From: a virus
IMG/VR virus record: IMGVR_UViG_3300029267_002252
Span: 37,532 to 101,531 of that record
Reading direction: 5' to 3' (one strand)
DNA: 64,000 nucleotides
Position numbers and translations under genes: made by a program. Numbering within the stretch: the stretch's first letter is position 1; each line of letters opens with the position of its first letter. A model generated the notes under the pieces. That model searched no databases, was not told the DNA's origin, and saw nothing but the letters and a program-made list of their open reading frames with translations. Positions 10,301 to 46,511 of the stretch are shown piece by piece.

Positions 10301-11377
10301 GCGACTCTTAATCTTGGTGCGTACGCGTCTGCACGTGGAGTAAAGATGGTAAATAGCTGTGGACGTATTTACGGTTCGACGTGGGTCGGTCTACATGATT
10401 TTTATATGTCTTCTGGTTCTGGTGAGTTTACGTATGAAATCCAACTGGGAACATTTTGCGATGTATCTCATGGACTTGTAGACGGAGATTATTATCAGCC
10501 GGGACCGCAAGGTTCCTGTAGCCGTGTGTACGTCACAGGAAATATGTATTTGTATAATACCGTAAGGTGGCGTGAAGTTACTTGTGATGGGACTTTTTAT
10601 GTTGATACGGGAGGAGTTACTTCTTATGCAGATACTTATGTAGCTCCTTATTATTATAGCCCTTCTTATGACCGGTTTCGCAATAATCTCAGGATGAGCT
10701 CATCTGCATATGCAAGTGAGAGTGTTGGGAGTATTTCATGGAGCCCGCTTAGATTCAGGGGGAATGTCCTGCGCACTGATTTTGGTCTAAGTGACAATTC
10801 TTGGACGTCGGTAGGAAATACGGGAAATCGGTTGGGAGTCAGGGTAGAGGCCGGAGTAACCTATATTATAGAGTATTTTATTCTCGTAGTAGGTAGGCCG
10901 GGAACCTCAACAGGAATCATTCAGCTCAGGTTTAACTTTCCGAGCATGGAAACAGACAGTTTTGGGGGTATTTATGGGTTTACTGAGGAGCATAACCTTG
11001 ATGTTTCGGTCGGCAGTGATTATTTTGGTGGCCCAGGAGCTTATAGGACGACAGCATCGGTTGGTGGTTATAAGAGTTGGGGGCTTAATGCTTTGACCGG
11101 GCAAGATATATGGGTGCGGTCTTCTGGAAACGATAGCACTGCGGGAGTCACTGGCACGGTAACTTTTCACACACAGATAGGTACATTGAGCACATCATAC
11201 TATTATTTTTTCCCAATGCATGTATGGTTGATGTACGAGTGTGGAGATGTAGAGGGTTGGTTTTACCCGGATATTCTAATGAATTGGGGTGGTACTCAGG
11301 CAGTGGTTAAGCAGAATTCTTATGTGAGGATGTCAGCCGGAGCCGCAGAGACCCTGTCCTCCATAGAGACCCAATAG
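7337..11377 (+). CDS. Large tail spike with two tandem beta-helix modules
   Basis: 1346 residues, the largest protein in the window. Residues 1-45 are the VPIRFLYG attachment domain shared with the upstream fibre. Two pectate-lyase-like right-handed beta-helices follow, one starting near 105 (YLIAPSGGNYTSI, then PGTYTETSNITL) and one near 716 (TLIDAGGNGDFSTVGAAV), each with an LxxxCxxxxCxI-like rung pattern. Linkers between them carry HSQVTTGNPHSLDAADVGA and SHSDTSATGAELDSLTDG, shared with 16153-18027. The last 190 residues form a beta-rich cap (RVEAGVTYIIEYFILV). Twin helices suggest an internal duplication; polysaccharide depolymerase or receptor-binding function is inferred. Confidence 0.85.
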   Translation: MAEEVPIRFLYGAEASIPSATGADGRPIVTDDTDDEKLYVAINNANVQMGGKAVVEHTQQTTGNPHSLDYSDVSGADGATDVTGAELEELTDGSKSALHEHQMPYDYLIAPSGGNYTSISAYVADSPAQGDVIALAPGTYTETSNITLQAGVTMFALASQRDSNQPVRVVLGSYSFQGGAGSRIDGIYFDITPNSDSNKITLSIDTIFENCVLDYSGTVGSQGIYFNSGCIISNTRILGNNYLYNALECNGAENFSLRDIYISGVDTDYGRGVYLLSPNVGGSTIQRITMEDFATASSANDAVYLSGNTATKPCSVEHLHINGGSNVNVGLYIYSDIEGAMSVSDCSFTQCFIGMQVTSGRCALSNVTAYDCDRGFYFSGAVQGSNIVARGCGDGTTSGYGMYIGSWRCNISNISISNTVSGSWDIRNPSGQRNVISNFHCAGDCSLSGADNVYAFGTIEGDLTIGEGSTDDRNVFIDVKVFGSETDGGIHTKWNSRVHRDASGTPSSAYDVDDGYERGDFWIQESTDSLWVCVDNSTGAAVWTQLVPVSLDLSGHNVTELDDVSSAGSGQIITSGERTNLSTAYNHSQVTTGNPHSLDAADVGAAPSSHGSANHSGTIGTASQISDFDTEVSNNTNVSANTAARHAESHTIASHSDTTATGAELNTLTGGGNADALHSHSAPSHTIASHSDTSATGAELDSLTDGSKVTLHKHQGDWDTLIDAGGNGDFSTVGAAVSGSPSQAGSVWSVIGSTTESGNVTLPQDVALVGNGPSGTPNHVSRLVMGNNTLALSAGCVVRGLELYFTPTSDTNKITMAADSALIDCTIILTGSTKSKVISINGARTKIHNVIIDGNDYTYNAIYSGVAYEEISIQDVTIKEFNCASGGGTCVTITAPGNGCIFRNINITELASGTPSEYVCSFGTPSGYGVVYDNIRIDGNDSCNSAIFGSSISYPINVSNCTFLNISSSYQVQMGQGAQVSNIVCSNIATLNLGAYASARGVKMVNSCGRIYGSTWVGLHDFYMSSGSGEFTYEIQLGTFCDVSHGLVDGDYYQPGPQGSCSRVYVTGNMYLYNTVRWREVTCDGTFYVDTGGVTSYADTYVAPYYYSPSYDRFRNNLRMSSSAYASESVGSISWSPLRFRGNVLRTDFGLSDNSWTSVGNTGNRLGVRVEAGVTYIIEYFILVVGRPGTSTGIIQLRFNFPSMETDSFGGIYGFTEEHNLDVSVGSDYFGGPGAYRTTASVGGYKSWGLNALTGQDIWVRSSGNDSTAGVTGTVTFHTQIGTLSTSYYYFFPMHVWLMYECGDVEGWFYPDILMNWGGTQAVVKQNSYVRMSAGAAETLSSIETQ

Positions 11378-11388
11378 AGGATTAGTAT

Positions 11389-12228
11389 ATGAATAATTAT
11401 AGTGATGTAACTTTGACAATTGACGACCTTACTTCAGATTTGACAGATGGTGGGTTTTATCGGGATGAGCGCGGGTCAACGTTTACTAATTGCGTTTTCC
11501 AAAATACTGCTGGCGATGCTATGATTGAGCATGTTGATTTTTCATATGCTTTGTTTACCAACTGTACATGGAGCAACCCTGTTAAAGATTGTTTATTCGT
11601 ATCTGCTGAAGGAGCGGTTCCGGGGATATGTAATGTCGTGTTCGATTCAGCTCCTCCTGATAAATGGCTCCCGGCAGATGACATTAACACTATTCTCAGG
11701 GGTACGGGGGAAGAAACTGAGTGGGATTTTGCCCGTATTGATGAGACTGCTGTTCGAAATGCTTTTGAGAACACCCCTATAAATATGGATGACGAGAATC
11801 CAGAATATCTTACAGCAGATGATTATACATTGACTATGGGGAAAGCTCATTATGATTGCCCGATATATGCTGGGGAAGTTTCGAGAACTGAGTGGTTAGC
11901 TGTGGCTACATTTGAAATATCTACAGATGCTATTGATTCATACCAGCCTTACGATGGTATTCCAGATATTCCAGCGAACGGGACAAGCTCATGTACAATT
12001 ACCGTTACTGCAAAAGACCGCGCAGGAGATACCAAAGATGATGATACGACAGTAGTCGTATTTAAGACAACCAGGGGAAGCTTAAGTTCGTTACAGGTTA
12101 CGATGACTGATGGAGTAGCCGAAACAGATTTAACGTCAGTTACAGAAACGACTATCGCTACTGTTACAGCAGAGATAGAAGGAGAGGAGCCGCTGACTAT
12201 TGATATTCAGTTTGCTCCTACGACATAA
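11389..12228 (+). CDS. Spike-associated protein with short beta-helix and Ig-like domain
   Basis: 279 residues and paralogous to 28205-28990. The N-terminal third has beta-helix-like rungs (GSTFTNCVFQNTAGDAMIE, YALFTNCTWSNPVKDCLF). The C-terminal 95 residues form a bacterial Ig/invasin-like domain (DIPANGTSSCTITVTAKDR, TTRGSLSSLQVTMTDGVAE). Each paralogue directly follows a large beta-helix spike gene, so it is probably a partner or cap of that spike. Close RBS GAGGA at 11377-11381. Confidence 0.75.
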   Translation: MNNYSDVTLTIDDLTSDLTDGGFYRDERGSTFTNCVFQNTAGDAMIEHVDFSYALFTNCTWSNPVKDCLFVSAEGAVPGICNVVFDSAPPDKWLPADDINTILRGTGEETEWDFARIDETAVRNAFENTPINMDDENPEYLTADDYTLTMGKAHYDCPIYAGEVSRTEWLAVATFEISTDAIDSYQPYDGIPDIPANGTSSCTITVTAKDRAGDTKDDDTTVVVFKTTRGSLSSLQVTMTDGVAETDLTSVTETTIATVTAEIEGEEPLTIDIQFAPTT

Positions 12229-30826: not shown

Positions 30827-31062
30827 ACGTAGAGTGGGGAACAGTTATCTCGGGAGCATGCGAGTCATGTGTATTCGGTGACACGAGACTGGCTATGAAC
30901 TGCCCGAAGATGCGTGATGTATTCTATAAATATTTTCGGGACAGCGAGGAGATTTGGCTGAAGAAGTGTATGGGTTATGAGCCTATTGCAGATGCATCAG
31001 AAAACAACGTTAATACGTACGCAGGGGAGCTGCATATTACCGTTGGGAACCCGGATTCATAA
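30823..31062 (+). CDS. Small cysteine-containing protein, GTG start
   Basis: 79 residues from a GTG that overlaps the previous TGA (GTGA), with GGAGAAG upstream. Four cysteines in the first 50 residues (GACESCVFGD, NCPKM, KKCMGYEP) suggest a small metal or disulfide fold. Last gene of the long structural transcription unit before the repeat-rich break. Confidence 0.65.
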   Translation: MNVEWGTVISGACESCVFGDTRLAMNCPKMRDVFYKYFRDSEEIWLKKCMGYEPIADASENNVNTYAGELHITVGNPDS

Positions 31063-31086
31063 TTTGAAATTATTGTCAAATGTTTA

Positions 31087-31212
31087 TGTCACTGTGAGGT
31101 TTTGTGACATTTCGCTTTGTCACAGCGGAATCACAGTATTTCTCAATACGTAACGTTCTATATTAGAAAAGCGGGGTTTTAAGCGTTGTGACATATCACA
31201 GCGATGTCACAA
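31087..31212 (+). repeat. Cluster of TGTGACA/TGTCACA inverted repeats
   Basis: Contains TGTCACTGTGA (31087-31097), TGTGACA-N8-TGTCACA (31103-31124), TGTGACATATCACA (31187-31200), and a perfect 9-bp inverted repeat TTGTGACAT (31186-31194) with ATGTCACAA (31204-31212). A further GTGACA/TGTCAC pair lies at 31846-31861. The spacing resembles dimer-binding operators of the CRP/FNR kind but no host factor can be named. The whole 31063-31258 gap shows no convincing gene. Confidence 0.7.
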
Positions 31213-31225
31213 TATTGGATTTTGT

Positions 31226-31241
31226 TTGCACGTGATTGCAA
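31226..31241 (+). repeat. TTGCAA-type palindrome copy (TTGCACGTGATTGCAA)
   Basis: Sits between the TGTGACA cluster and the RBS GGAGAG of the next small ORF. Confidence 0.6.
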
Positions 31242-31258
31242 TCGTCTGGAGAGTATAG

Positions 31259-31474
31259 ATGCGGGATAATGACCGGGATAAGCGTCCACGGAGTCGGGAC
31301 AATCTTATACCGAGACCACCCCAGGAAGATACCAACGGACACCACGATTTTGCACACGATGAGGAGTGGATAGGAACCGCTTTACCGGGAATCTATTACC
31401 TCAACTATACATACACATACCATAGAGGGATAACGTACTACTACAGTATTTATTTCAATATCCGCATCAGATAG
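31259..31474 (+). CDS. Small hypothetical protein, doubtful
   Basis: 71 codons after GGAGAG (31248-31253). The first half is very charged (RDNDRDKRPRSRDNLIPRPP), the second tyrosine-rich (YYLNYTYTYHRGITYYYSIY), an odd mixture unlike other proteins here. It lies in a region crowded with operator-like repeats. RBS and spacing support it; composition argues against. Confidence 0.4.
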   Translation: MRDNDRDKRPRSRDNLIPRPPQEDTNGHHDFAHDEEWIGTALPGIYYLNYTYTYHRGITYYYSIYFNIRIR

Positions 31475-31500
31475 CCGGTAACTTTACAGAGAGGAGCGTA

Positions 31501-32337
31501 ATGAACCCGTTGCAATCGATTGCAATGCCCACAGCCCTTCTAAGCACTCACGTCCACGCTCCTGAAAGTCGGGAAACAAGAACAACCCCTATAAATAATA
31601 AACATACTACCCCAGTCCCGCTTACCATACCGTCCCCCCACACGACCACAGTATACCATACTTTACACACCGCTTTACACCGAACCGCTCAAATACGCCC
31701 CTATATGCGGTATTATGCCCATAAAACGGTACTATATACCCTCTATGTTCTAGCAATTTGTGTGCGCTACAGGCATATAAATGCGATTTATGGCATTTAT
31801 CAGTTCGTAAAAAATGTTATCAACCGGTTTACGTGCAGGCGAATGGTGACAAAAATGTCACATATTATAAATGGGGGTATTGGCGGTCTTAGAGAATTAT
31901 ATTATCATTTCGAATTGAAAACATTAATAAGCCCATGTGTATTTAACATTGGCGTTATAAGGACCGGCAAATCGGGATACCGTGACCAGCAATTCGTATG
32001 CGCCAGCAATAAATTAAGTGAAATTCCGCTAATTTATCAGTCGGTAATTCGGGGTGAAAAAGAAATTAAATGGTTCATGTGTATTTTCGCCATGTGTATT
32101 CGGCTTTTAGAGTCGGTTCTAAGGCCCATGTGTATTCGGTTACGCGGATTACGTAGGGCCCGTGTGTATTCGGCTTTGCGTGTGGTATTTAATTATTTGA
32201 AAATCAACCAATTTATCCCGGTGGTCGGGCCCGGAAAAGTGGAATTAGATTCAGGCGGGTTATTTAAGCCGGCGGTCATTTCATCTTCAGGTCTTCCAGG
32301 CCGTTTGAAAATGATTGCAATGGGGCAGGCAGCATGA
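31501..32337 (+). CDS. Long ORF of doubtful coding status in regulatory/origin-like region
   Basis: A 278-codon open frame with GAGAGGAG upstream (31491-31498). The composition is atypical: few acidic residues, many His/Thr/Pro in the first 70 and Arg/Ile/Tyr later, and C-rich codons rare in neighbouring genes. It includes a TTGCAA palindrome at its start, a GTGACA inverted repeat and four CATGTGTATT-type repeats, of which three are read in the same frame as MCI. This looks like non-coding DNA that happens to lack stops, yet the length and RBS keep a gene possible. No domain recognised. Confidence 0.3.
   Translation: MNPLQSIAMPTALLSTHVHAPESRETRTTPINNKHTTPVPLTIPSPHTTTVYHTLHTALHRTAQIRPYMRYYAHKTVLYTLYVLAICVRYRHINAIYGIYQFVKNVINRFTCRRMVTKMSHIINGGIGGLRELYYHFELKTLISPCVFNIGVIRTGKSGYRDQQFVCASNKLSEIPLIYQSVIRGEKEIKWFMCIFAMCIRLLESVLRPMCIRLRGLRRARVYSALRVVFNYLKINQFIPVVGPGKVELDSGGLFKPAVISSSGLPGRLKMIAMGQAA
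31510..31525 (+). repeat. TTGCAA palindrome copy, perfect (TTGCAATCGATTGCAA)
   Basis: Full two-fold symmetry over 16 bases, nine bases inside the doubtful long ORF. Confidence 0.65.
31560..31740 (+). other. C-rich, G-poor strand-composition switch
   Basis: The + strand here is rich in C, A and T and poor in G (for example CCCCACACGACCACAG), the reverse of the purine-rich + strand elsewhere. No minus-strand ORF accounts for it. A local GC-skew inversion beside repeats is typical of replication origins; that is inference. Confidence 0.45.
31934..32175 (+). repeat. Cluster of five CATGTGTATT-type repeats
   Basis: Copies at 31934, 32076, 32091, 32127 and 32161 (last one CGTGTGTATT), three followed directly by CGGC or CGGT. 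Spacing is irregular (15 to 142 bases). Related longer copies occur further right in intergenic DNA. Confidence 0.65.
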
Positions 32338-32447
32338 GGCGCGTATGGTTTGATATTGGTCGGGCACCGGCAGATTGCAATCAATTGCAAATTAGCCGGC
32401 ACCCGGATACGCCGGCCCCAGGTATTCAGGTGGTTTCCACCGTGTAG
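32334..32447 (+). CDS. Tiny ORF overlapping the doubtful long ORF
   Basis: 37 codons (MRRVWFDIGRAPADCNQ start). Its ATG overlaps the preceding stop as ATGA, the coupling style used throughout this genome, but it lacks its own RBS and contains a TTGCAA palindrome. Real only if the upstream ORF is real. Confidence 0.2.
   Translation: MRRVWFDIGRAPADCNQLQISRHPDTPAPGIQVVSTV
32375..32390 (+). repeat. TTGCAA palindrome copy (TTGCAATCAATTGCAA)
   Basis: Flanked by several CCGGC elements between 32366 and 32416. Confidence 0.6.
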
Positions 32448-32503
32448 GAGTAGACAATGGAAGATGGACCAGGTAGGTTTATAATTCTGGATAGAGTTCG
32501 AGT

Positions 32504-32548
32504 GAGCAGGATTGCAAGTGATTGCAAATGCTCTTTTAACCTTTTTTT
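32504..32548 (+). terminator. Terminator-like hairpin built around a TTGCAA palindrome
   Basis: GAGCA (32504-32508) and TGCTC (32529-32533) enclose TTGCAAGTGATTGCAA (32512-32527); TTTT and a run of seven T follow. The TTGCAA halves form the upper stem. It lies just before the RBS of the membrane protein gene, so it could act as an attenuator. Confidence 0.55.
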
Positions 32549-37875: not shown

Positions 37876-37903
37876 TTGACTAATATAGAATGTATGATAT
37901 AAT
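37876..37903 (+). promoter_or_regulatory. Extended -10 promoter
   Basis: TTGACT and TATAAT spaced 16, TG one base before the -10. Reads into the gene at 37963. Confidence 0.85.
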
Positions 37904-39655: not shown

Positions 39656-39689
39656 CCAGTCCATTTCTTTTTTCTAAAGGAGGGTGAAG

Positions 39690-40865
39690 ATGGACGACAA
39701 AAAACTGGCAGGATTTGCCACAAAGTCTGAGTCGGCAATCGACCAGATGCGTAAGGAAGAGGCGAAGCTCGTTCTGCACGAGTTTATCGCTGAAGTCGGG
39801 TGCACCGATTTCGAGGTCGCGGATGATGATTTGCGTGAGAAGGGTCTCAAGGCAGACGTCATTTCTGAAATAACCGACCTTACGATTCCCGGTGTGAAAC
39901 TTGCGTGGGTGACTGAGAGTACTCTCAATGTCAAGGTTACTCCTAAATCCTATAAAGGGATTAAGGGTCAGCCGACACCCACACTCAGGGAAGGTAAGGA
40001 GTTCGACGGCGATGCCGATTCGGATTTCTATATCTATCCCGAATGCACCCCCAAGGTAGTCGAACTGATTGAGGAGGGGTTTCCCGTTCTCTTAATCGGA
40101 CCTGCCGGCACGGGGAAAACAGACCTGCTTGAACGTGTTATCAAACACAAGCTCGGTCGGAAAGTACTTCCATTCAATATGACCGAGGAAACCACGGTCG
40201 ATGACTTCATCGGACACATCAGTCTGAAAGACAACGGTGACGGTGTGATGGAAACCGTATTTACCGATGGTCCGCTTACGCAGTCAATGCGTGAGGGATT
40301 GGTGCTTCAGATTGACGAGTTGGACGTGGCGGAGCAGGGAATTCTGTTCGTACTCCAACGAGTTCTGGAAGGTAAAGACCTCATTGTTTCCAAGAACCAC
40401 GGTGAGCGCGTCAAAGCGGCTCCAGGATTCGCAGTGGTCGCCACCTCGAATACCGCAGGACGAGGTGACCAAGCAGACATCTATCGGAGTCGGCAGATAC
40501 TTGACGAAGCCTTCCTTGATAGATGGTTGGGAGTGTTCCGCATCAATTACCTGTCACAGTCAGACGAGATAAAGGTGCTCCGCAGGAGAACCGGAATCGG
40601 ACAGGCGCAAGCGAAATCATTAACGAAGATTGCCACGGCTGCACGTGCGAGCTTCGGTCAGGATATTATGACTACATTCAGCCTTCGGAAAAGTATCGCC
40701 ACGGCGAAGCTTATCGGGAAGGGATGGACGATGGTCGATGCGTTCAAAGTCGCGGTGCTGAATAAATGCACGGACGAGGACGCGATGGCGCTTGCTGAGA
40801 TTTATCAGCGGATAGCTAAAGACCCGATTGATATGAGCGACAGGATGGGCACGAGCGAAGAATAG
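39690..40865 (+). CDS. MoxR/CobS-type AAA+ ATPase
   Basis: 391 residues from ATG 39690, which follows AAGGAGGGTG; a GTG six bases earlier is inside the ribosome site. Walker A GPAGTGKT (137-144), Walker B VLQIDE (205-210), sensor-1 TSNT (252-255) and the DEAFLDRW stretch (272-279) match the MoxR/CobS clade. The first 110 residues are a separate acidic domain. This clade works with VWA partners to remodel proteins or insert metals; in phages it is often labelled cobalt chelatase although other cobalamin genes are absent, as here. Partner likely at 41029. Confidence 0.9.
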   Translation: MDDKKLAGFATKSESAIDQMRKEEAKLVLHEFIAEVGCTDFEVADDDLREKGLKADVISEITDLTIPGVKLAWVTESTLNVKVTPKSYKGIKGQPTPTLREGKEFDGDADSDFYIYPECTPKVVELIEEGFPVLLIGPAGTGKTDLLERVIKHKLGRKVLPFNMTEETTVDDFIGHISLKDNGDGVMETVFTDGPLTQSMREGLVLQIDELDVAEQGILFVLQRVLEGKDLIVSKNHGERVKAAPGFAVVATSNTAGRGDQADIYRSRQILDEAFLDRWLGVFRINYLSQSDEIKVLRRRTGIGQAQAKSLTKIATAARASFGQDIMTTFSLRKSIATAKLIGKGWTMVDAFKVAVLNKCTDEDAMALAEIYQRIAKDPIDMSDRMGTSEE

Positions 40866-40889
40866 GTCACCCTCCGTTCTTCGCAAATG

Positions 40890-40920
40890 AAGGGGCGGGG
40901 GATGCAGACCTCCGCCCCTT
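40890..40920 (+). terminator. Stem-loop after AAA+ gene
   Basis: AAGGGGCGGGGG pairs with CCTCCGCCCCTT around ATGCAGA (12 bp with one G-T). No T-run follows, so termination efficiency is uncertain. Confidence 0.6.
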
Positions 40921-40952
40921 AACTAAGGGTGAGAAGTTGTTTGAAAATCTGC

Positions 40953-40980
40953 TTGACTTATTGCAATTATATGATATAAT
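40953..40980 (+). promoter_or_regulatory. Extended -10 promoter before VWA gene
   Basis: TTGACT-N16-TATAAT. The spacer contains TTGCAATTATATGA, overlapping one TTGCAA half-site. Confidence 0.85.
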
Positions 40981-41028
40981 ATAATTGTATATTTAGTTAA
41001 GATACTCATATATTCGGAGGGTGAACAA

Positions 41029-43473
41029 ATGAGTAAGTTAGCAAGAATGTTAGAAGTCGGACAGCAAGCGGCTGCACGTGTCTGTGCCGGCAAACGTGTT
41101 CGTATCCTTTACGACACGAAGGGCGGAGCATATACTGAGCCTAACAAGCATGGTATCATACATCTGCCACCACTTCCGGCGGACTTGAGTGATGAAGCAA
41201 TCAATATGCTTCGAGGTCTTGTTGACCATGAGTCCGGTCACGTTAATGACACCGACATGGGTGTTTACAAACGGAAGAAAATAATCGGCGCGGGGATTGT
41301 CCATTTTTTCAGTAATGCAATGGAAGATGCCAGGGTCGATAAGCTGATGGGGGAGAAGGCTCTCGGCGTAGCCCGAAACCTTGACTTCATTCACAATCAG
41401 GCGCTCTATAAAGAGGACATTTGCAGTAATATCCGAGACAAGGAGGGTTGCGATGATAACGAACGTGCCCTGCTTCTGCTCGGTATGCGTATGACAAGAA
41501 CCCACAGGCCGGACGATATTGAGTATATTGACAGTCGTGGAGAAGAGGTCAGCCCGATGTACCCGAAATTCGTGGACATGGTGAAGGAGCAGTTGGAGCG
41601 GGCGAAGTCAGTTCGCAGTACTGAGGAGGTAGTTAACCTCTCAATGGAAATGACTGAAATTTTGAAGGACTATATCAGTCAGGTCGAAGTGCCGAACCCG
41701 TATGGGGGAGAGGGTGAGGAAGGACAGGAAGGGGAAAGCCAGTCCGGTCAGGGACAGGGGAGTTCTTCTGAGGCTGATGGGGATAGTGAGAGTTCTGAGT
41801 CTGGCGGGAAGTCCTCAAAGGGAGGCAAGGGGAAAAAGAGCAAGAGCGACAAATCCGAGGACGGGGAAGGTAAAGGTGAGGGGGAGCAGGAAAAGGATAG
41901 TTCCGGTCCGGGGGAAGTTGAAGAAATTGATATGAGAAAAGATAAAGGTGACGATAGTTCTGCAAGTGATTGCAGTGAGGAGGGCGAAGATGAAGGAGCC
42001 GGCGAAGGGGAAGATGAATCCGGAGGAGGCGGAGATGATAGTGAAGAAACTGAAGAGGCTGAGGGAACTTCTGATTCTGCTGAAGGCGAAGACGGAGACG
42101 AGGCCGAGGATTCATCCTCTGATGGAGAAGGTTCTGATAGTGGAGCAGATGATGAAGGGGAGGTAGAGGACGAAGAGGAAGGTGAAGAGGAAAAGGATTG
42201 GGACGAGTGGGGCGAAGAGGATTATGAGGAAGATGGTTGGGATGATGATGGCGAGGATGAGGATTTTGATGATGACGAGGGTGAGGAGGAAGCCGAAGAA
42301 GGGGACGGTGATGGCGACGGGAGTCCTGATGGTGAGGAGAGTGAAGAAGACGGGGTAGAGGAAGAAGAAAAAAGCATCGAGGAGAAGCGGCAGGAAGTTA
42401 AAGATAAACTTGATGAAACTATCGGAGGCATTGCTCAGCAGAGCAGTGGAGCAGATGGGGGCGTGACTGCTGAAAGCGTGCTTTATGATAAGGTTAGCAA
42501 ACTGATTATTACTGACAAAGTTGATTCCGGCTATCGTGGGGAAACTGTGATACCTTACATCAATGACGACCGGGAGGTAGACCTTGTTGCTGAGAGAGAC
42601 CCGGCTGCGTTGGGAAAAGTATATCCGCATACGCATGCGGCGGACGCGAGGGAGCGGGGGTTCGAGCGATACACTAAGAATGTCCAAGAACTGAGGGGCG
42701 ATGTTAATGTGCTCCGGCGGAGACTGCTGATGGACTTGCTCGGCAATCCTAAGAAGTGGACAAAGCGACAGAAGCAGGGTACGATTAATGACAGGGATTT
42801 ATTCAGGGTCGCATTCAAAGAAGAAGATTTGTTCAAGCAGAAGCGGCGGAAGATTGAACTTGATGCTGCGGTTACTCTGCTCGTTGACTGCTCCGGTTCG
42901 ATGTCGGGAAGCAAGATACAGACGGCAACGGATGTTGCTATTATTCTGTCGGAAACATTGAACTTAGTCGGGGTACCGTTTGAAGTTCTCGGATTCACCC
43001 AAGTCGGAGGCGGGAGCCATCACTACAAAGAAGGGTACACCAGAGTGAGCCCACTGCTCGGCTATGTCGTAAAACCGTTTGAACGGAAATTAGACCATAA
43101 GACCAAAGGTGCGATGGGAAGTCTGCCCGAGGTACTGCTTTATCAGAACCTTGACGGTGAGAGTTTACGATGGGCCGCCAGGAGATTGGCAGAGCGCAAG
43201 GAAAGCAAGAAACTGTTAATCGTAATCTGCGATGGAGCGCCGGCGGGGTATGCTCGATACAATCCCGATGAAGATTTGATACAGGTTGCCCGACAGATAG
43301 AGGATAGCGGCGAAATCAATCTGTTCTGCATCGGAGTTCAGTACTCAAGTGTCGGTCGTTACTATACGAACCATTGCAAAGTTGATAAGGTGAGCGAACT
43401 TGTTAAGACTGCGTACACGAAGATATCCGGCTTCTTGAAGGGGTTAAAAAGTGTGCGAAAGGCGGGGATGTGA
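41029..43473 (+). CDS. CobT-like protein: HEXXH domain, acidic linker, VWA domain
   Basis: 814 residues. The N-terminal domain holds VDHESGHVNDTD (H67-E-x-x-H71) and NAMEDARVD (97-104), the layout of a gluzincin-like metallopeptidase or its inactive relative. Residues about 222-460 are an extreme low-complexity Glu/Asp/Gly/Ser linker. A VWA domain follows, with MIDAS LLVDCSGSMSGSK (near 619-631) and ICDGAP later. CobT-type proteins pair with MoxR/CobS ATPases, such as the one immediately upstream. A separate promoter drives it. The acidic linker may mimic nucleic acid or bind cations; that is inference. Confidence 0.88.
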   Translation: MSKLARMLEVGQQAAARVCAGKRVRILYDTKGGAYTEPNKHGIIHLPPLPADLSDEAINMLRGLVDHESGHVNDTDMGVYKRKKIIGAGIVHFFSNAMEDARVDKLMGEKALGVARNLDFIHNQALYKEDICSNIRDKEGCDDNERALLLLGMRMTRTHRPDDIEYIDSRGEEVSPMYPKFVDMVKEQLERAKSVRSTEEVVNLSMEMTEILKDYISQVEVPNPYGGEGEEGQEGESQSGQGQGSSSEADGDSESSESGGKSSKGGKGKKSKSDKSEDGEGKGEGEQEKDSSGPGEVEEIDMRKDKGDDSSASDCSEEGEDEGAGEGEDESGGGGDDSEETEEAEGTSDSAEGEDGDEAEDSSSDGEGSDSGADDEGEVEDEEEGEEEKDWDEWGEEDYEEDGWDDDGEDEDFDDDEGEEEAEEGDGDGDGSPDGEESEEDGVEEEEKSIEEKRQEVKDKLDETIGGIAQQSSGADGGVTAESVLYDKVSKLIITDKVDSGYRGETVIPYINDDREVDLVAERDPAALGKVYPHTHAADARERGFERYTKNVQELRGDVNVLRRRLLMDLLGNPKKWTKRQKQGTINDRDLFRVAFKEEDLFKQKRRKIELDAAVTLLVDCSGSMSGSKIQTATDVAIILSETLNLVGVPFEVLGFTQVGGGSHHYKEGYTRVSPLLGYVVKPFERKLDHKTKGAMGSLPEVLLYQNLDGESLRWAARRLAERKESKKLLIVICDGAPAGYARYNPDEDLIQVARQIEDSGEINLFCIGVQYSSVGRYYTNHCKVDKVSELVKTAYTKISGFLKGLKSVRKAGM
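41961..41974 (+). repeat. TTGCAA-type palindrome core in VWA gene (TGCAAGTGATTGCA)
   Basis: 14-base core inside the acidic linker coding region; outer bases lost. Confidence 0.4.
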
Positions 43474-43482
43474 AAAAAAGAC

Positions 43483-43510
43483 TTGACATATTATGATTAT
43501 ATGATATAAT
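43483..43510 (+). promoter_or_regulatory. Extended -10 promoter
   Basis: TTGACA-N16-TATAAT, only nine bases after the VWA stop; no terminator intervenes. Confidence 0.85.
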
Positions 43511-43542: not shown

Positions 43543-43839
43543 ATGGGCGATATACTTGATGGCGACCAAGAAGATTATGTTGAGGACTTGGTAATACCGA
43601 AACGTGAGGATTTTCCTGACTGCGATGGTGACGTTCACGTTCGTGACGACTCGTTTATGCGCGGTGAGGATGATAAACGACATTTCGGATTCGAGCAGGT
43701 GCCTCGGGGGGAGAAGTTCGGTAACAGTGATTATAACCCCGATACTCCACGAGACGTTTATGCAATGATGGCAGTCTGCTTTTTATTCGCCATTATCTAT
43801 CAGGTGATAAAGTATTTGAGGGAAAGAGGTACCCAATGA
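43543..43839 (+). CDS. Acidic single-span membrane protein
   Basis: 98 residues. A very acidic 70-residue head (DGDQEDYVEDL, DCDGDVHVRDD) is followed by a membrane segment about 73-90 (YAMMAVCFLFAIIYQVIK) and a short basic tail: a C-tail-anchored layout with the acidic part outside the membrane. Four-base overlap with the next gene. Function unknown. Confidence 0.7.
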   Translation: MGDILDGDQEDYVEDLVIPKREDFPDCDGDVHVRDDSFMRGEDDKRHFGFEQVPRGEKFGNSDYNPDTPRDVYAMMAVCFLFAIIYQVIKYLRERGTQ

Positions 43840-44336
43840 ACATACCAGTCGTGGTTAACCCGTACATGCCGGATAATAAAGCATACCTTGTTTCACATAA
43901 TTATAACGGGTCGATACGTGACATCGTAGCGATAAATTTCTGTGCGGCACAGCGCCCTGCCCCGTGGTTCGAGCCCGTTGTGCCGGATGCACCCAAAGAA
44001 GCCAAGCCTGCTGCTGGTGGCGACGCGAAGCCACGAGGTACGGAGGAATTATCACTGGAGGAGTTGAAGGAGCGGGTCGAGGAGCTGGAGCGGGAAGTGG
44101 CAGACCTGAAGAGCAGGCCAGTGATTGTTCCAATATCTATCCCAGCAGTGCCGGCTGAGCCTGTTTATCCATACGTTCCGTACGAACCCGCGCCTTGGGT
44201 TCCGGGGATTGATGATGGGACCGGTGATTCTGTTACGATTACATGGACTGATTCGTCTACGTCCGGGAAGATATCCGGACTGATTGACAGTTCGTTTGGA
44301 GGCAACGACAATAAGTTTGGACTATATGGAGGGTGA
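43836..44336 (+). CDS. Coiled-coil/proline-rich protein
   Basis: 166 residues. An N-terminal beta part (MNIPVVVNPYMPDNKAYLV), then an alanine/proline-rich stretch, a coiled coil near 70-93 (LEELKERVEELEREVADLK), a proline-tyrosine-rich linker (VYPYVPYEPAPWVPG) and a glycine-rich end. The layout resembles a small trimeric fibre or scaffold, although its place among early genes is unusual. Confidence 0.7.
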   Translation: MNIPVVVNPYMPDNKAYLVSHNYNGSIRDIVAINFCAAQRPAPWFEPVVPDAPKEAKPAAGGDAKPRGTEELSLEELKERVEELEREVADLKSRPVIVPISIPAVPAEPVYPYVPYEPAPWVPGIDDGTGDSVTITWTDSSTSGKISGLIDSSFGGNDNKFGLYGG

Positions 44337-44340
44337 GAAG

Positions 44341-44766
44341 ATGGAAACATTATTTGGGGAAGTAGCCGTTAAGGATGAAGAGAAAGCTCTGGTCACCACG
44401 ACTATCGAAGTCGAGTCGCAGTGCACGGGAAATACTGAATCTGCATACCACCACACGGCAGAGTGTCCGTTTTGCCACAAAGATGCTGAAGTCACCGTAT
44501 TTCAGGACGGTGAGTACGTGTCAAGTGAGTGTTGCATACACTTCAGCGGAACGTATAAGTTCCGGGATGGCAGAGTACGGGGACTGAAGTTCTCAGGAAA
44601 ACGTAAACACATCGCTGTTTTGCGTGGCGAAGTCGAGTGGATAGAGATGGCTGACGTCACCTGCCCATACTGCAAATATGTAGAGCGGGTGGACGAGTAC
44701 GAATTGCCTTCAAGGGATGATTCTCTGTTTCAGTGCTCCTGTTGCAAGGAGAAGTTCTTAATTTAG
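44341..44766 (+). CDS. Two-zinc-site protein
   Basis: 141 residues from ATG 44341 after GGAGGGTGAG; an earlier in-frame ATG would overlap the previous gene. Two cysteine sets are seen: CPFCHK with SECCIHF, and CPYCKY with QCSCCKEKF, each like a zinc ribbon. Probably binds nucleic acid or a protein partner. Last gene before the structured non-coding region. Confidence 0.72.
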   Translation: METLFGEVAVKDEEKALVTTTIEVESQCTGNTESAYHHTAECPFCHKDAEVTVFQDGEYVSSECCIHFSGTYKFRDGRVRGLKFSGKRKHIAVLRGEVEWIEMADVTCPYCKYVERVDEYELPSRDDSLFQCSCCKEKFLI

Positions 44767-44773
44767 GGTGCTG

Positions 44774-44794
44774 TGAGCCCAGAATGAGCCCAGA
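44774..44794 (+). repeat. Tandem 10-base direct repeat TGAGCCCAGA
   Basis: Two exact copies separated by one base just after the zinc protein stop, at the entrance to the RNA-like region. Confidence 0.55.
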
Positions 44795-44876
44795 TTAAGA
44801 GAAGTGACCTTGAAATGAGCCGTTATTCATACTGACCTATTAAAGCCTTAGAACGCCTCTGAGCGGCTCTGAGGAT

Positions 44877-44896
44877 TATTGCAAGTGATTGCAATA
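44877..44896 (+). repeat. TTGCAA palindrome copy with extended arms
   Basis: TATTGCAA and TTGCAATA flank GTGA, giving perfect 8-base arms. It lies upstream of the structured RNA candidate. Confidence 0.65.
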
Positions 44897-44929
44897 GCTC
44901 TTTGAAAACAGACCACCCCTGCTTAGGCT

Positions 44930-45550
44930 CCCTGACAAGCGACGGCGTATAGAACTCGCCCTTAAATAAATGGGCTGATAGATTCTCCCTCCATTCGACG
45001 TAAGGGTGAGCCGTGGACTATTATACAAACAGTCCAATGCAGTATGACTGGGGGGTGGAGGAGCCGGAGATTAGTGGTTCCGAAAACCGAAGGGAGAGCC
45101 TTCGGGATGCCCTTGCCCCCCTTTACGACCGCAATAGAGCCGAACCTGCTACGCCTCATTAACCAGGTACACCTGGAGAGGTCGAAGGTGCTAAGCTCTT
45201 TTATATTTAGAGTGATTAAAAAAAGGTGGACAGTGCGCAAACCCCCACCCGTGTCGCCGAGTAGTTGTCAAGGCCCGCGCATAGGGACCGACGATGAAGG
45301 GCGGGACTGTCAGACGCCTCATTGCGAGGGGTAGATGTCTAAGTGCCAGTTTCTCCGATTAAGCAGACGTGCCTAAACGAGACCGTTGCCAAAGACCATG
45401 CCTATCAGAGGCCGCAGTTGAACGTGCCGTCAGATAGATGCGAAGCCGATTCCCCTAGTGGTAAGCTGAAGCCGAGCGTCAGAGACCTGCCGGGGGCCGG
45501 GACGGAGAGGGATTAGCGGTCCTTTCTGTCACCGGCCCTTAATTTTTTTA
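44930..45550 (+). ncRNA. Candidate large structured non-coding RNA
   Basis: An 860-base gap between genes, GC-rich and full of long pairings. CTCGCCCTTA (44955-44964) pairs with TAAGGGTGAG (45001-45010), extended by ACGG/CCGT. GGACT/AGTCC form a hairpin (45015-45035). GGGGGG (45050-45055) pairs with CCCCCC (45116-45121) around two inner hairpins. CCTC/GAGG enclose CCAGGT/ACCTGG (45154-45181). AGAC/GTCT enclose CCTC/GAGG (45311-45339). It ends in a 17-bp terminator. About 620 nt, the size range of ornate phage RNAs such as GOLLD or ROOL, but I cannot match it to either. No tRNA, tmRNA or RNase P signature fits. 5' end uncertain; it may be processed from the upstream transcript. Confidence 0.6.
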
Positions 45551-45551
45551 T
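45494..45551 (+). terminator. Terminator closing the structured RNA
   Basis: GGGCCGG plus GACGGAGAGG pair with CCTTTCTGTC plus CCGGCCC (17 pairs including two G-T), loop GATTAGCGGT, then TTAATTTTTTTATTTT. The next promoter begins eight bases later. Confidence 0.85.
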
Positions 45552-45558
45552 TTTGACC

Positions 45559-45586
45559 TTGACATATTACATTTATATGCTATAAT
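45559..45586 (+). promoter_or_regulatory. Extended -10 promoter
   Basis: TTGACA-N16-TATAAT, directly behind the RNA terminator, insulating the next operon. Confidence 0.87.
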
Positions 45587-45632
45587 ATAAGTATTACTTT
45601 GGAGACAGGACTTTTTCAGAAGGAGAGTGAAA

Positions 45633-46511
45633 ATGGGCTTGGATATCTATCTTTATCACGCTACAGAGGATTTGAAGCCGTGGCGCGAGAAACAGGAAGA
45701 GTACGAGAAGAAATCTGAAAAGATGTGGAAGGAAGCCGGCGAGTATGACGACCTCACCGACGAAGAACGAGATGCGGTCAGCAAGAAAACAGATGAGCTG
45801 GCTAAGTCGCTCGGGTTGGATGAGTGGGGGAGCGTCCCTGACCATATTGAAGAAGGGGTTAACGAACCGAGCAAAATTCACCCTGACCACATGTTTACGG
45901 TCGGATATTTCCGCAGTTCATACAACAGTGGCGGGATGAACTCAGTATTTCGTGACCTGGGGGTTCCCGACCTTTATGACATCTTCGGGAAAGATAATGA
46001 TGAATATATGTTCACACCTGACTGGGAGGCGTCGAAAGAACGCGCCCGGCTCGCTATTGAGCAGTTGAAGAAACTTGCTGAAAGCGACTTCGGGAAGTAC
46101 CGGGCAATGGAAATGGATGTCAACATTTCGTGGTTGAAGGGATTGACTGAAAGCGATACCAAGCGAGGCGACGAGAATCCTCGCAAACCTGCCTATTCAA
46201 AGCAGGAGGCGATGCAGGAGTTCGTCAAACAGTTGGAGAATCACAAGGGTGATGATGGAAAGCCGAGCGGATTTTCCTCATATTCCACGGGTACGGGAGA
46301 CTATTTTCTTGAGGGAATCAAGGTATTCGGATTCGTAAAGGGGACATCTAAACATTTCATGGGCGGGGAGATACCTACCATTTATGCTATCGCTGAAAAT
46401 AAGGAAGCATACCAGTGGTACATCGAAGCGCTTGAAGTCGTTGAAGAAGTCTGCGACTATGTTTTGGCGCAGGATGACCCTGAAAACTATTTCTTTCACT
46501 GGAGTGGTTGA
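45633..46511 (+). CDS. MGLDIY-type early phage protein
   Basis: 292 residues from ATG 45633 after AAGGAGAGTGAA. The opening MGLDIYLYHAT is shared with widespread phage early proteins of unknown role. The middle contains FTVGYFRSSYNSGGMNSVFRD, and the end has TGTGDYFLEGIKVFGFV and YFFHWSG. Acidic and soluble, with a lysine/glutamate helix near 18-60. The stop overlaps the next ATG by one base. Confidence 0.78.
   Translation: MGLDIYLYHATEDLKPWREKQEEYEKKSEKMWKEAGEYDDLTDEERDAVSKKTDELAKSLGLDEWGSVPDHIEEGVNEPSKIHPDHMFTVGYFRSSYNSGGMNSVFRDLGVPDLYDIFGKDNDEYMFTPDWEASKERARLAIEQLKKLAESDFGKYRAMEMDVNISWLKGLTESDTKRGDENPRKPAYSKQEAMQEFVKQLENHKGDDGKPSGFSSYSTGTGDYFLEGIKVFGFVKGTSKHFMGGEIPTIYAIAENKEAYQWYIEALEVVEEVCDYVLAQDDPENYFFHWSG

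Follow-up and report, generated by a model that had tools for sequence, protein, structure and literature searches.

ROOL RNAs are phage-encoded, about 580–660 nt long, of complex predicted structure and of unknown function (PMC12286853). GOLLD is likewise a large phage or prophage RNA of unknown function, and new independent examples of such large stable phage RNAs are rare. Membership of ROOL is defined by the covariance model RF03087, with a gathering score of 99.1 bits; further criteria are a location close to a phage or prophage tRNA island, which is frequent, and a covariation-supported multi-pseudoknot fold with an octameric nanocage. Membership of GOLLD is defined by a match to RF02032 that includes the universally conserved 3′ region. 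A third described system is the leader of rrn operons, arranged boxB–boxA–boxC, in which boxC follows boxA and pairs with the trailer in a leader–trailer logic (PMC10250234).

We analyzed a window of 64,000 nt of phage DNA, to whose + strand the positions below refer unless a contig is named. The window lies within a 101.5-kb contig; the same phage is represented by a 183,648-base contig (G001) of identical sequence, and is of the myovirus type (tail sheath, baseplate wedge). The two ends of the longer contig (L030 start, L040 end) share tRNA-Pro, a boxA and the start of tRNA-Leu. Given these shared ends, the contig probably represents a nearly complete genome, with either circular permutation or terminal redundancy.

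An 860-base gap at 44767–45626, between a stop codon at 44766 and the start of the next gene (GTG 45627 or ATG 45633), has a GC content of 0.54, higher than that of its neighbourhood. The original prediction placed in this gap a large non-coding RNA whose 3′ end is precise and which falls in no Rfam class, arguing from the density of paired segments. In our analysis, an ncRNA of about 580–640 nt with these properties was the best reading of the gap, while structure density did not hold up as an argument for it. The reading was strengthened instead by a boxA leader and an end-closing helix, both of which had been missed. We conclude that the gap is probably an orphan, untranslated, structured phage RNA gene that uses host Nus-type antitermination.

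Comparison with known RNA classes

The gap RNA resembles ROOL in its phage origin, size and complex predicted structure. It differs in having no covariance-model match, in not lying beside a tRNA island and in being an orphan sequence. RF03087 had no match in the cmscan of the window or in a scan of the gap at E ≤ 10. A scan of the whole phage also yielded no ROOL match, but none of 14 control genomes matched either, and a very divergent copy could escape the model. By comparison with GOLLD, the gap RNA has no match to RF02032, is shorter and is not near tRNAs. The phage does possess tRNA islands (45 tRNA predictions), none of them inside the window: the gap corresponds to G001:69648–70468 and the tRNAs lie at 0–5 kb and 160–183.6 kb, with the arrays about 65–70 kb off. 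The likeness to GOLLD and ROOL that had been proposed thus extends to size and layout, and not to the covariance models or the tRNA-island setting.

A cmscan of the gap against 4227 Rfam families yielded no match at the gathering threshold, as anticipated by the original prediction that no known class would be recognised; the best score was 15.4 bits (E 2.5), where gathering requires 50, and is that of a chance match. Rfam misses divergent members, and the RNase P RNA of this phage also scores below gathering. The gap was rejected as a group I or II intron, tRNA, tmRNA or RNase P RNA, there being no Rfam support for any of these and no T-arm in the sequence. An 8-mer of the gap, GCTGATAG (44974), recurs in the permuted-tRNA units described below. 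The possibility that it is the core of a ribozyme common to both was considered and rejected; the surrounding helix differs, and the 8-mer was treated as a chance occurrence.

The search for the same locus in related phages, which the original prediction had proposed, found no homologue in IMG/VR, in GTDB as covered by one pattern scan, or in GenBank phages and plasmids. More specifically, blastn of the gap against GenBank phages and plasmids returned no homologue, nor did RNA blastn against the contigs of nine relatives. Searches for a gap homologue among IMG/VR viral contigs, anchored on the downstream gene or on an alignment of that gene with its Bordetella phage homologue, were negative, as were those among viral contigs anchored on the CbbQ-like ATPase, the portal and RecA. 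In one pattern scan of viral contigs and GTDB genomes, in which the loops were specified and the stems left free, the extra matches lacked complementary stems. An exact 19-mer of the gap occurred only in the phage itself. Overall, the sole matches to the gap were the phage itself (IMGVR_UViG_3300017987_000005, 100% identical) and unrelated chance matches. As no homologue was found in the searched collections, no covariation was available.

A predicted boxA leader

The 5′ end of the gap carries, at 44878–44909, a 7-bp hairpin and then GCTCTTTGAAAAC. The hairpin, ATTGCAA-GUGA-UUGCAAU (44878–44895), occupies a boxB-like position directly 5′ of boxA and is also a palindrome dispersed in the phage. 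The rRNA-type boxA, GCUCUUUGAAAAC (44897–44909), is a predicted NusB/S10 site and fits G[CT]TCTTT[AG]A[AC]A. The interval originally proposed for the RNA, 44930–45550, has a precise 3′ end; its start should be placed at 44878, with the hairpin and boxA included. The gamma-proteobacterial boxA consensus is GYTCTTTAANA (PMC5725501). Compared with this consensus, which may not be that of the host, the gap boxA, GCTCTTTGAAA, has a G for A at position 8. It begins with A, and most of the phage copies begin with T. The G variant at position 8 is a Bacillus-type boxA.

The generalised boxA, G[CT]TCTTT[AG]A[AC]A, occurs 11 times in the 183.6-kb phage versus 0.93 expected; one pair of the 11 is the contig terminal repeat, which leaves 10 sites. 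Of the nine other than the gap site, seven immediately precede an RNA gene or a probable one: tRNA-Val, tRNA-Leu, tRNA-Ala, a permuted-tRNA unit, the tmRNA and two candidate RNA stretches. The remaining two fall within sequence that is, or probably is, coding. RNA genes together with their 60 upstream bases make up 2.3% of the strand positions of the phage. Since boxA copies cluster upstream of RNA genes, an rRNA-style boxA is, to judge from its sequence context, the leader of the stable RNAs of this phage, and the gap bears the same predicted mark. The gap therefore probably encodes an ncRNA of ~600 bases, as it starts with the boxA signal that precedes the tRNAs and tmRNA. The boxA-led tRNA and tmRNA genes (L030, L034 and L040) have the same boxA as the gap RNA, and tRNA-Gln (L040:160–190) is preceded by the same composite of hairpin and boxA; these genes belong to recognised families, whereas the gap RNA does not. 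In a PWM ranking, which is only illustrative and is partly circular because the matrix was trained on those boxA sites, the gap boxA came 19th. If boxA marks phage RNA genes generally, it would provide a sequence-only handle on orphan ncRNAs that are invisible to covariance models. It would also make it possible to test directly whether phages use the rRNA antitermination complex of the host to make their stable RNAs.

The early transcription unit

The nearest promoter upstream of the gap is an early phage promoter at 43483–43510, a 12/12 match to TTGACA-16-TATAAT with an extended −10 TATG. It precedes three small genes identified as ORFs (43543–43839, 43836–44336 and 44332–44766) that belong to the same transcription unit as the RNA; the second and third had no Pfam match, and the third had one weak PHROG match (phrog_6504). 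Sequence inspection revealed no terminator between these genes and the gap RNA, and the copies of the phage promoter family include none of the gap's own. The promoter of the next unit (gene 45627–46511), also a 12/12 match with an extended −10, lies at 45559–45586, 10 nt past the terminator. Transcription most likely proceeds from 43483 through the three small genes to the terminator at 45494–45549, and the gap RNA apparently forms the 3′ portion of the early operon transcript and is not separately promoted.

Having no promoter of its own, the gap might be nothing more than a long 3′ UTR. The structured UTR would belong to the 43543–44766 operon, boxA would do no more than keep the polymerase going, and the structure would protect or regulate the mRNA, with no separate stable RNA being formed. 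The location of the nearest promoter upstream of three genes is consistent with such a UTR, as are the lack of a proven terminator or processing site between 44766 and 44910 and the ordinary folding energy of the gap. Nevertheless, we consider it unlikely: from the last stop to the next promoter there are 792 nt at the gap, versus about 10–270 nt in the other measurable gaps of the early region, boxA marks RNA genes in this phage, and the P1 helix described below closes exactly between boxA and the terminator.

The promoter family comprises at least 25 near-identical copies dispersed through the phage, with TTGACA or TTGACT, 16 nt, and TATAAT preceded by TATG (pattern CTTGAC[AT]TAT-N8-TATATG[AC]TATAATATAAGTG). 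Copies in the window are located at 37876, 39029, 40953, 43483, 45559, 47482, 49215, 51278, 52591, 54606, 56033, 59706 and 61482; others are in G001. A CbbQ/MoxR-type ATPase and a CobT-like VWA protein are encoded as a pair at 39684–43473, adjoining the gap.

Predicted fold

The body of the predicted ncRNA, about 580 nt (44910–45493), matches no Rfam family and no protein family. Its ends are predicted to be joined by a helix, P1, in which a leader-like 5′ strand (44918–44946) pairs with a trailer-like 3′ strand (45471–45493) immediately 5′ of the terminator, with a probability of 0.60–0.73. Among 251 downstream windows, the best partner of the 5′ end was exactly the 3′ end. End pairing of this type was found in 3.5% of shuffles (p = 0.035) and in 0 of 30 other segments of the window; for the raw duplex alone, p = 0.054. 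P1 would enclose about eight predicted hairpin domains. The gap is like the rrn leader in having a hairpin, then a predicted boxA, then a leader strand predicted to pair with a 3′-end strand. It differs in that it leads a non-rRNA, that support for the helix is moderate and that NusB binding is predicted.

The individual helices named in the original prediction are present, some with altered limits. The 10-bp helix CTCGCCCTTA/TAAGGGTGAG (44955–44964/45001–45010), with one G.U pair and a pairing probability of 0.99, closes a hairpin domain at 44955–45010 (CUCGCCCUUA/UAAGGGUGAG). A hairpin follows at 45014–45036 (UGGACUAUU/AACAGUCCA; probability 0.83). The GGGGGG/CCCCCC pairing proposed at 45050/45116 is present as GGGGG/CCCCC (45051–45055/45116–45120), with a probability of only 0.53; the domain it closes (45051–45120) contains two 7-bp hairpins, at 45060–45081 and 45087–45105 (0.79 and 0.98, respectively). 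The nested CCTC/CCAGGT hairpins proposed at 45154–45181 correspond to the helices GCCUC/GAGGU and CCAGG/CCUGG at 45153–45182 (0.94 and 0.99), within a nested hairpin domain at 45136–45199 (0.68–0.99). Further hairpins are predicted in the 3′ half at 45225–45437 (0.53–0.97), the firmest being 45251–45307 and 45402–45437; compared with shuffles, this half has no folding advantage (z +1.5). The final terminator, proposed as 17 bp at 45494–45551, is an intrinsic terminator of 18 bp with one bulged A at 45494–45549. Its stem (45494–45538; loop AUUAGCGG) is followed by a U tract (UUAAUUUUUUU), and it is clearly beyond chance (z −4.9).

Apart from the terminator, the density of paired segments that had been offered as evidence for an RNA is only marginally above that of shuffles. 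Against dinucleotide shuffles, p was 0.03 for helices of at least 7 bp and 0.28 for those of at least 10 bp, and the MFE z-score of the gap was −0.9 without the terminator and −2.0 with it. In the same phage, coding segments scored 0.1 to −1.5, the tmRNA −1.5 and the RNase P RNA −1.6. As the known RNAs and the coding segments of the phage overlap, the MFE z-score was dropped as evidence for an RNA. Helix density alone proves nothing because the folding energy of the gap is ordinary. By the same token, ordinary folding energy does not argue against an RNA, since the tmRNA and RNase P RNA score alike.

The gap might instead encode two tandem RNAs (about 44910–45195 and about 45208–45552), each behind a boxA as in the tRNA arrays of this phage. 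A second, weaker boxA-like site, AGCTCTTTTATATT, does occur at 45194 (13.3 bits) and resembles one before tRNA-Glu (L030:984, TGTTCTTTTATATT); in addition, GCUUAG/CUAAGC can close the first part, which is the better folded of the two (z −1.7 to −2.3). However, the first part taken by itself shows no significant end pairing (p = 0.28–0.43), and folding into a single RNA is favoured by 13 kcal/mol over folding into two; we regard the tandem arrangement as highly improbable.

Coding content

The claim that the 860-base gap lacks a credible ORF was borne out: three gap ORFs tested had no protein-family match in Pfam or PHROG, and codon usage was unexceptional relative to windows in RNA genes. The two best small ORFs, 45013–45162 (49 aa) and 45343–45516 (57 aa), have codon usage above that of all 145 shadow ORFs, a null that is biased, and within the range of true gene fragments; relative to open windows inside RNA genes of the same phage, they rank within the top 7%. 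That one or both encode a protein, with the structure incidental or regulatory, is very doubtful despite this gene-like codon usage, as both start with GTG, the 49-aa ORF has no tblastn match among phages, and ORFs of such lengths arise by chance within the phage's tRNA and tmRNA regions.

Proposed synthesis and role

In the preferred reading of the gap as a single RNA gene, RNA polymerase would start at 43483, pass the three small genes and transcribe the hairpin and boxA (44878–44909). The boxA is predicted from its sequence to recruit host NusB/S10 and partners, which may shield the ribosome-free transcript from Rho and tether the leader during RNA synthesis. The emerging 3′ strand would pair with the leader strand to form P1, closing a multi-domain RNA as in rrn leader–trailer helices, and transcription would stop at 45494–45549. 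The mRNA part would presumably then be cut off; the gap RNA would be the last member of the early transcription unit. We infer that this RNA is expressed, subject to antitermination, matured and stable. Its role is a matter of guesswork: by analogy with ROOL and GOLLD, it may be a stand-alone stable RNA, scaffold or RNP, possibly tied to the RNA-handling set of the phage. We propose only tentatively that it belongs to a new class among the large stable RNAs of phages, borrowing the host machinery for rRNA antitermination and leader–trailer folding, in a phage rich in RNA-processing functions.

RNA-handling genes and other features of the phage

The RNase P RNA, apparently permuted tRNA genes, RtcB and TROVE protein of this phage are arguably more remarkable than the gap. 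The RNase P RNA is minimal, about 190 nt, and lies between tRNA-Thr genes in a tRNA array (L040:2490–2683, − strand; G001 about 182490–182683). It has the ends GAGGAAAGUC...ACAGAAUCCCGCUUA and scores 51.3 bits (E 2.4e-15) with Rfam RNaseP_bact_a, under the gathering score of 100. The tmRNA (L034:10418–10775, − strand; 100.8 bits) has its 5′ end directly after a perfect boxA, TGTTCTTTGAAAA. Upstream of the tmRNA are ~800 non-coding bases (L034:10795–11600, − strand) that carry one boxA at 11311 and another, weaker, at 11591. This stretch, which has no Rfam match, may hold one or two more candidate RNAs.

At L030:1000–1900 (− strand; G001 1000–1900) lies a series of tRNA genes that are apparently circularly permuted, with the 3′ half first, then a short linker and the 5′ half. 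Most units are preceded by a boxA-like TTGTTCTTT and are bounded by ...GTGMTGATAG..GAGTTACTTC and ACTT[GT]CC. Their flanks covary by eye (GCC-CGA/UCG-GUGC, GCC-CGG/CCG-GUGC and GCC-UCC/GGA-GUGC), and the unit at L030 1447–1358, rejoined as a circle, was read by ARAGORN as tRNA-Lys(UUU). The motif was found with tRNA pieces likewise arranged in no other viral contig. Neither permuted tRNAs of this kind nor a phage RNase P RNA was found described in the open-access literature searched, which is not proof of novelty. At L034:19757–19987 (− strand), the anticodon loop of a tRNA is apparently interrupted by an intron some 130–150 nt long. The intron has no Rfam intron match and contains GCAGTGATGAAG, a motif common to the permuted units. 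A TROVE/Ro60-like RNA-binding protein (L030:2021–3523, − strand) is encoded adjoining the permuted tRNAs, and an RtcB RNA ligase is encoded at L030:7846–9015 (− strand).

A second ORF-poor stretch of the window, 31070–32540, has reversed GC skew, several TTGCAA palindromes and repeats of CATGTGTATTCGG, and is possibly an origin or control region. The repeats are located at 30866, 32091 and 32127, with variants at 32060, 32160, 35710 and 35764. TTGCAA-N3/4-TTGCAA palindromes are dispersed in the phage, many of them intergenic (window 31226, 31510, 32375, 32512, 36503, 44879, 47531 and 61418; L033:9559; L034:696 and 13473), and are likely bound by a protein of the phage or of its host. Finally, L028:10608–13439 encodes a candidate terminase large subunit with an intein that carries a LAGLIDADG domain.
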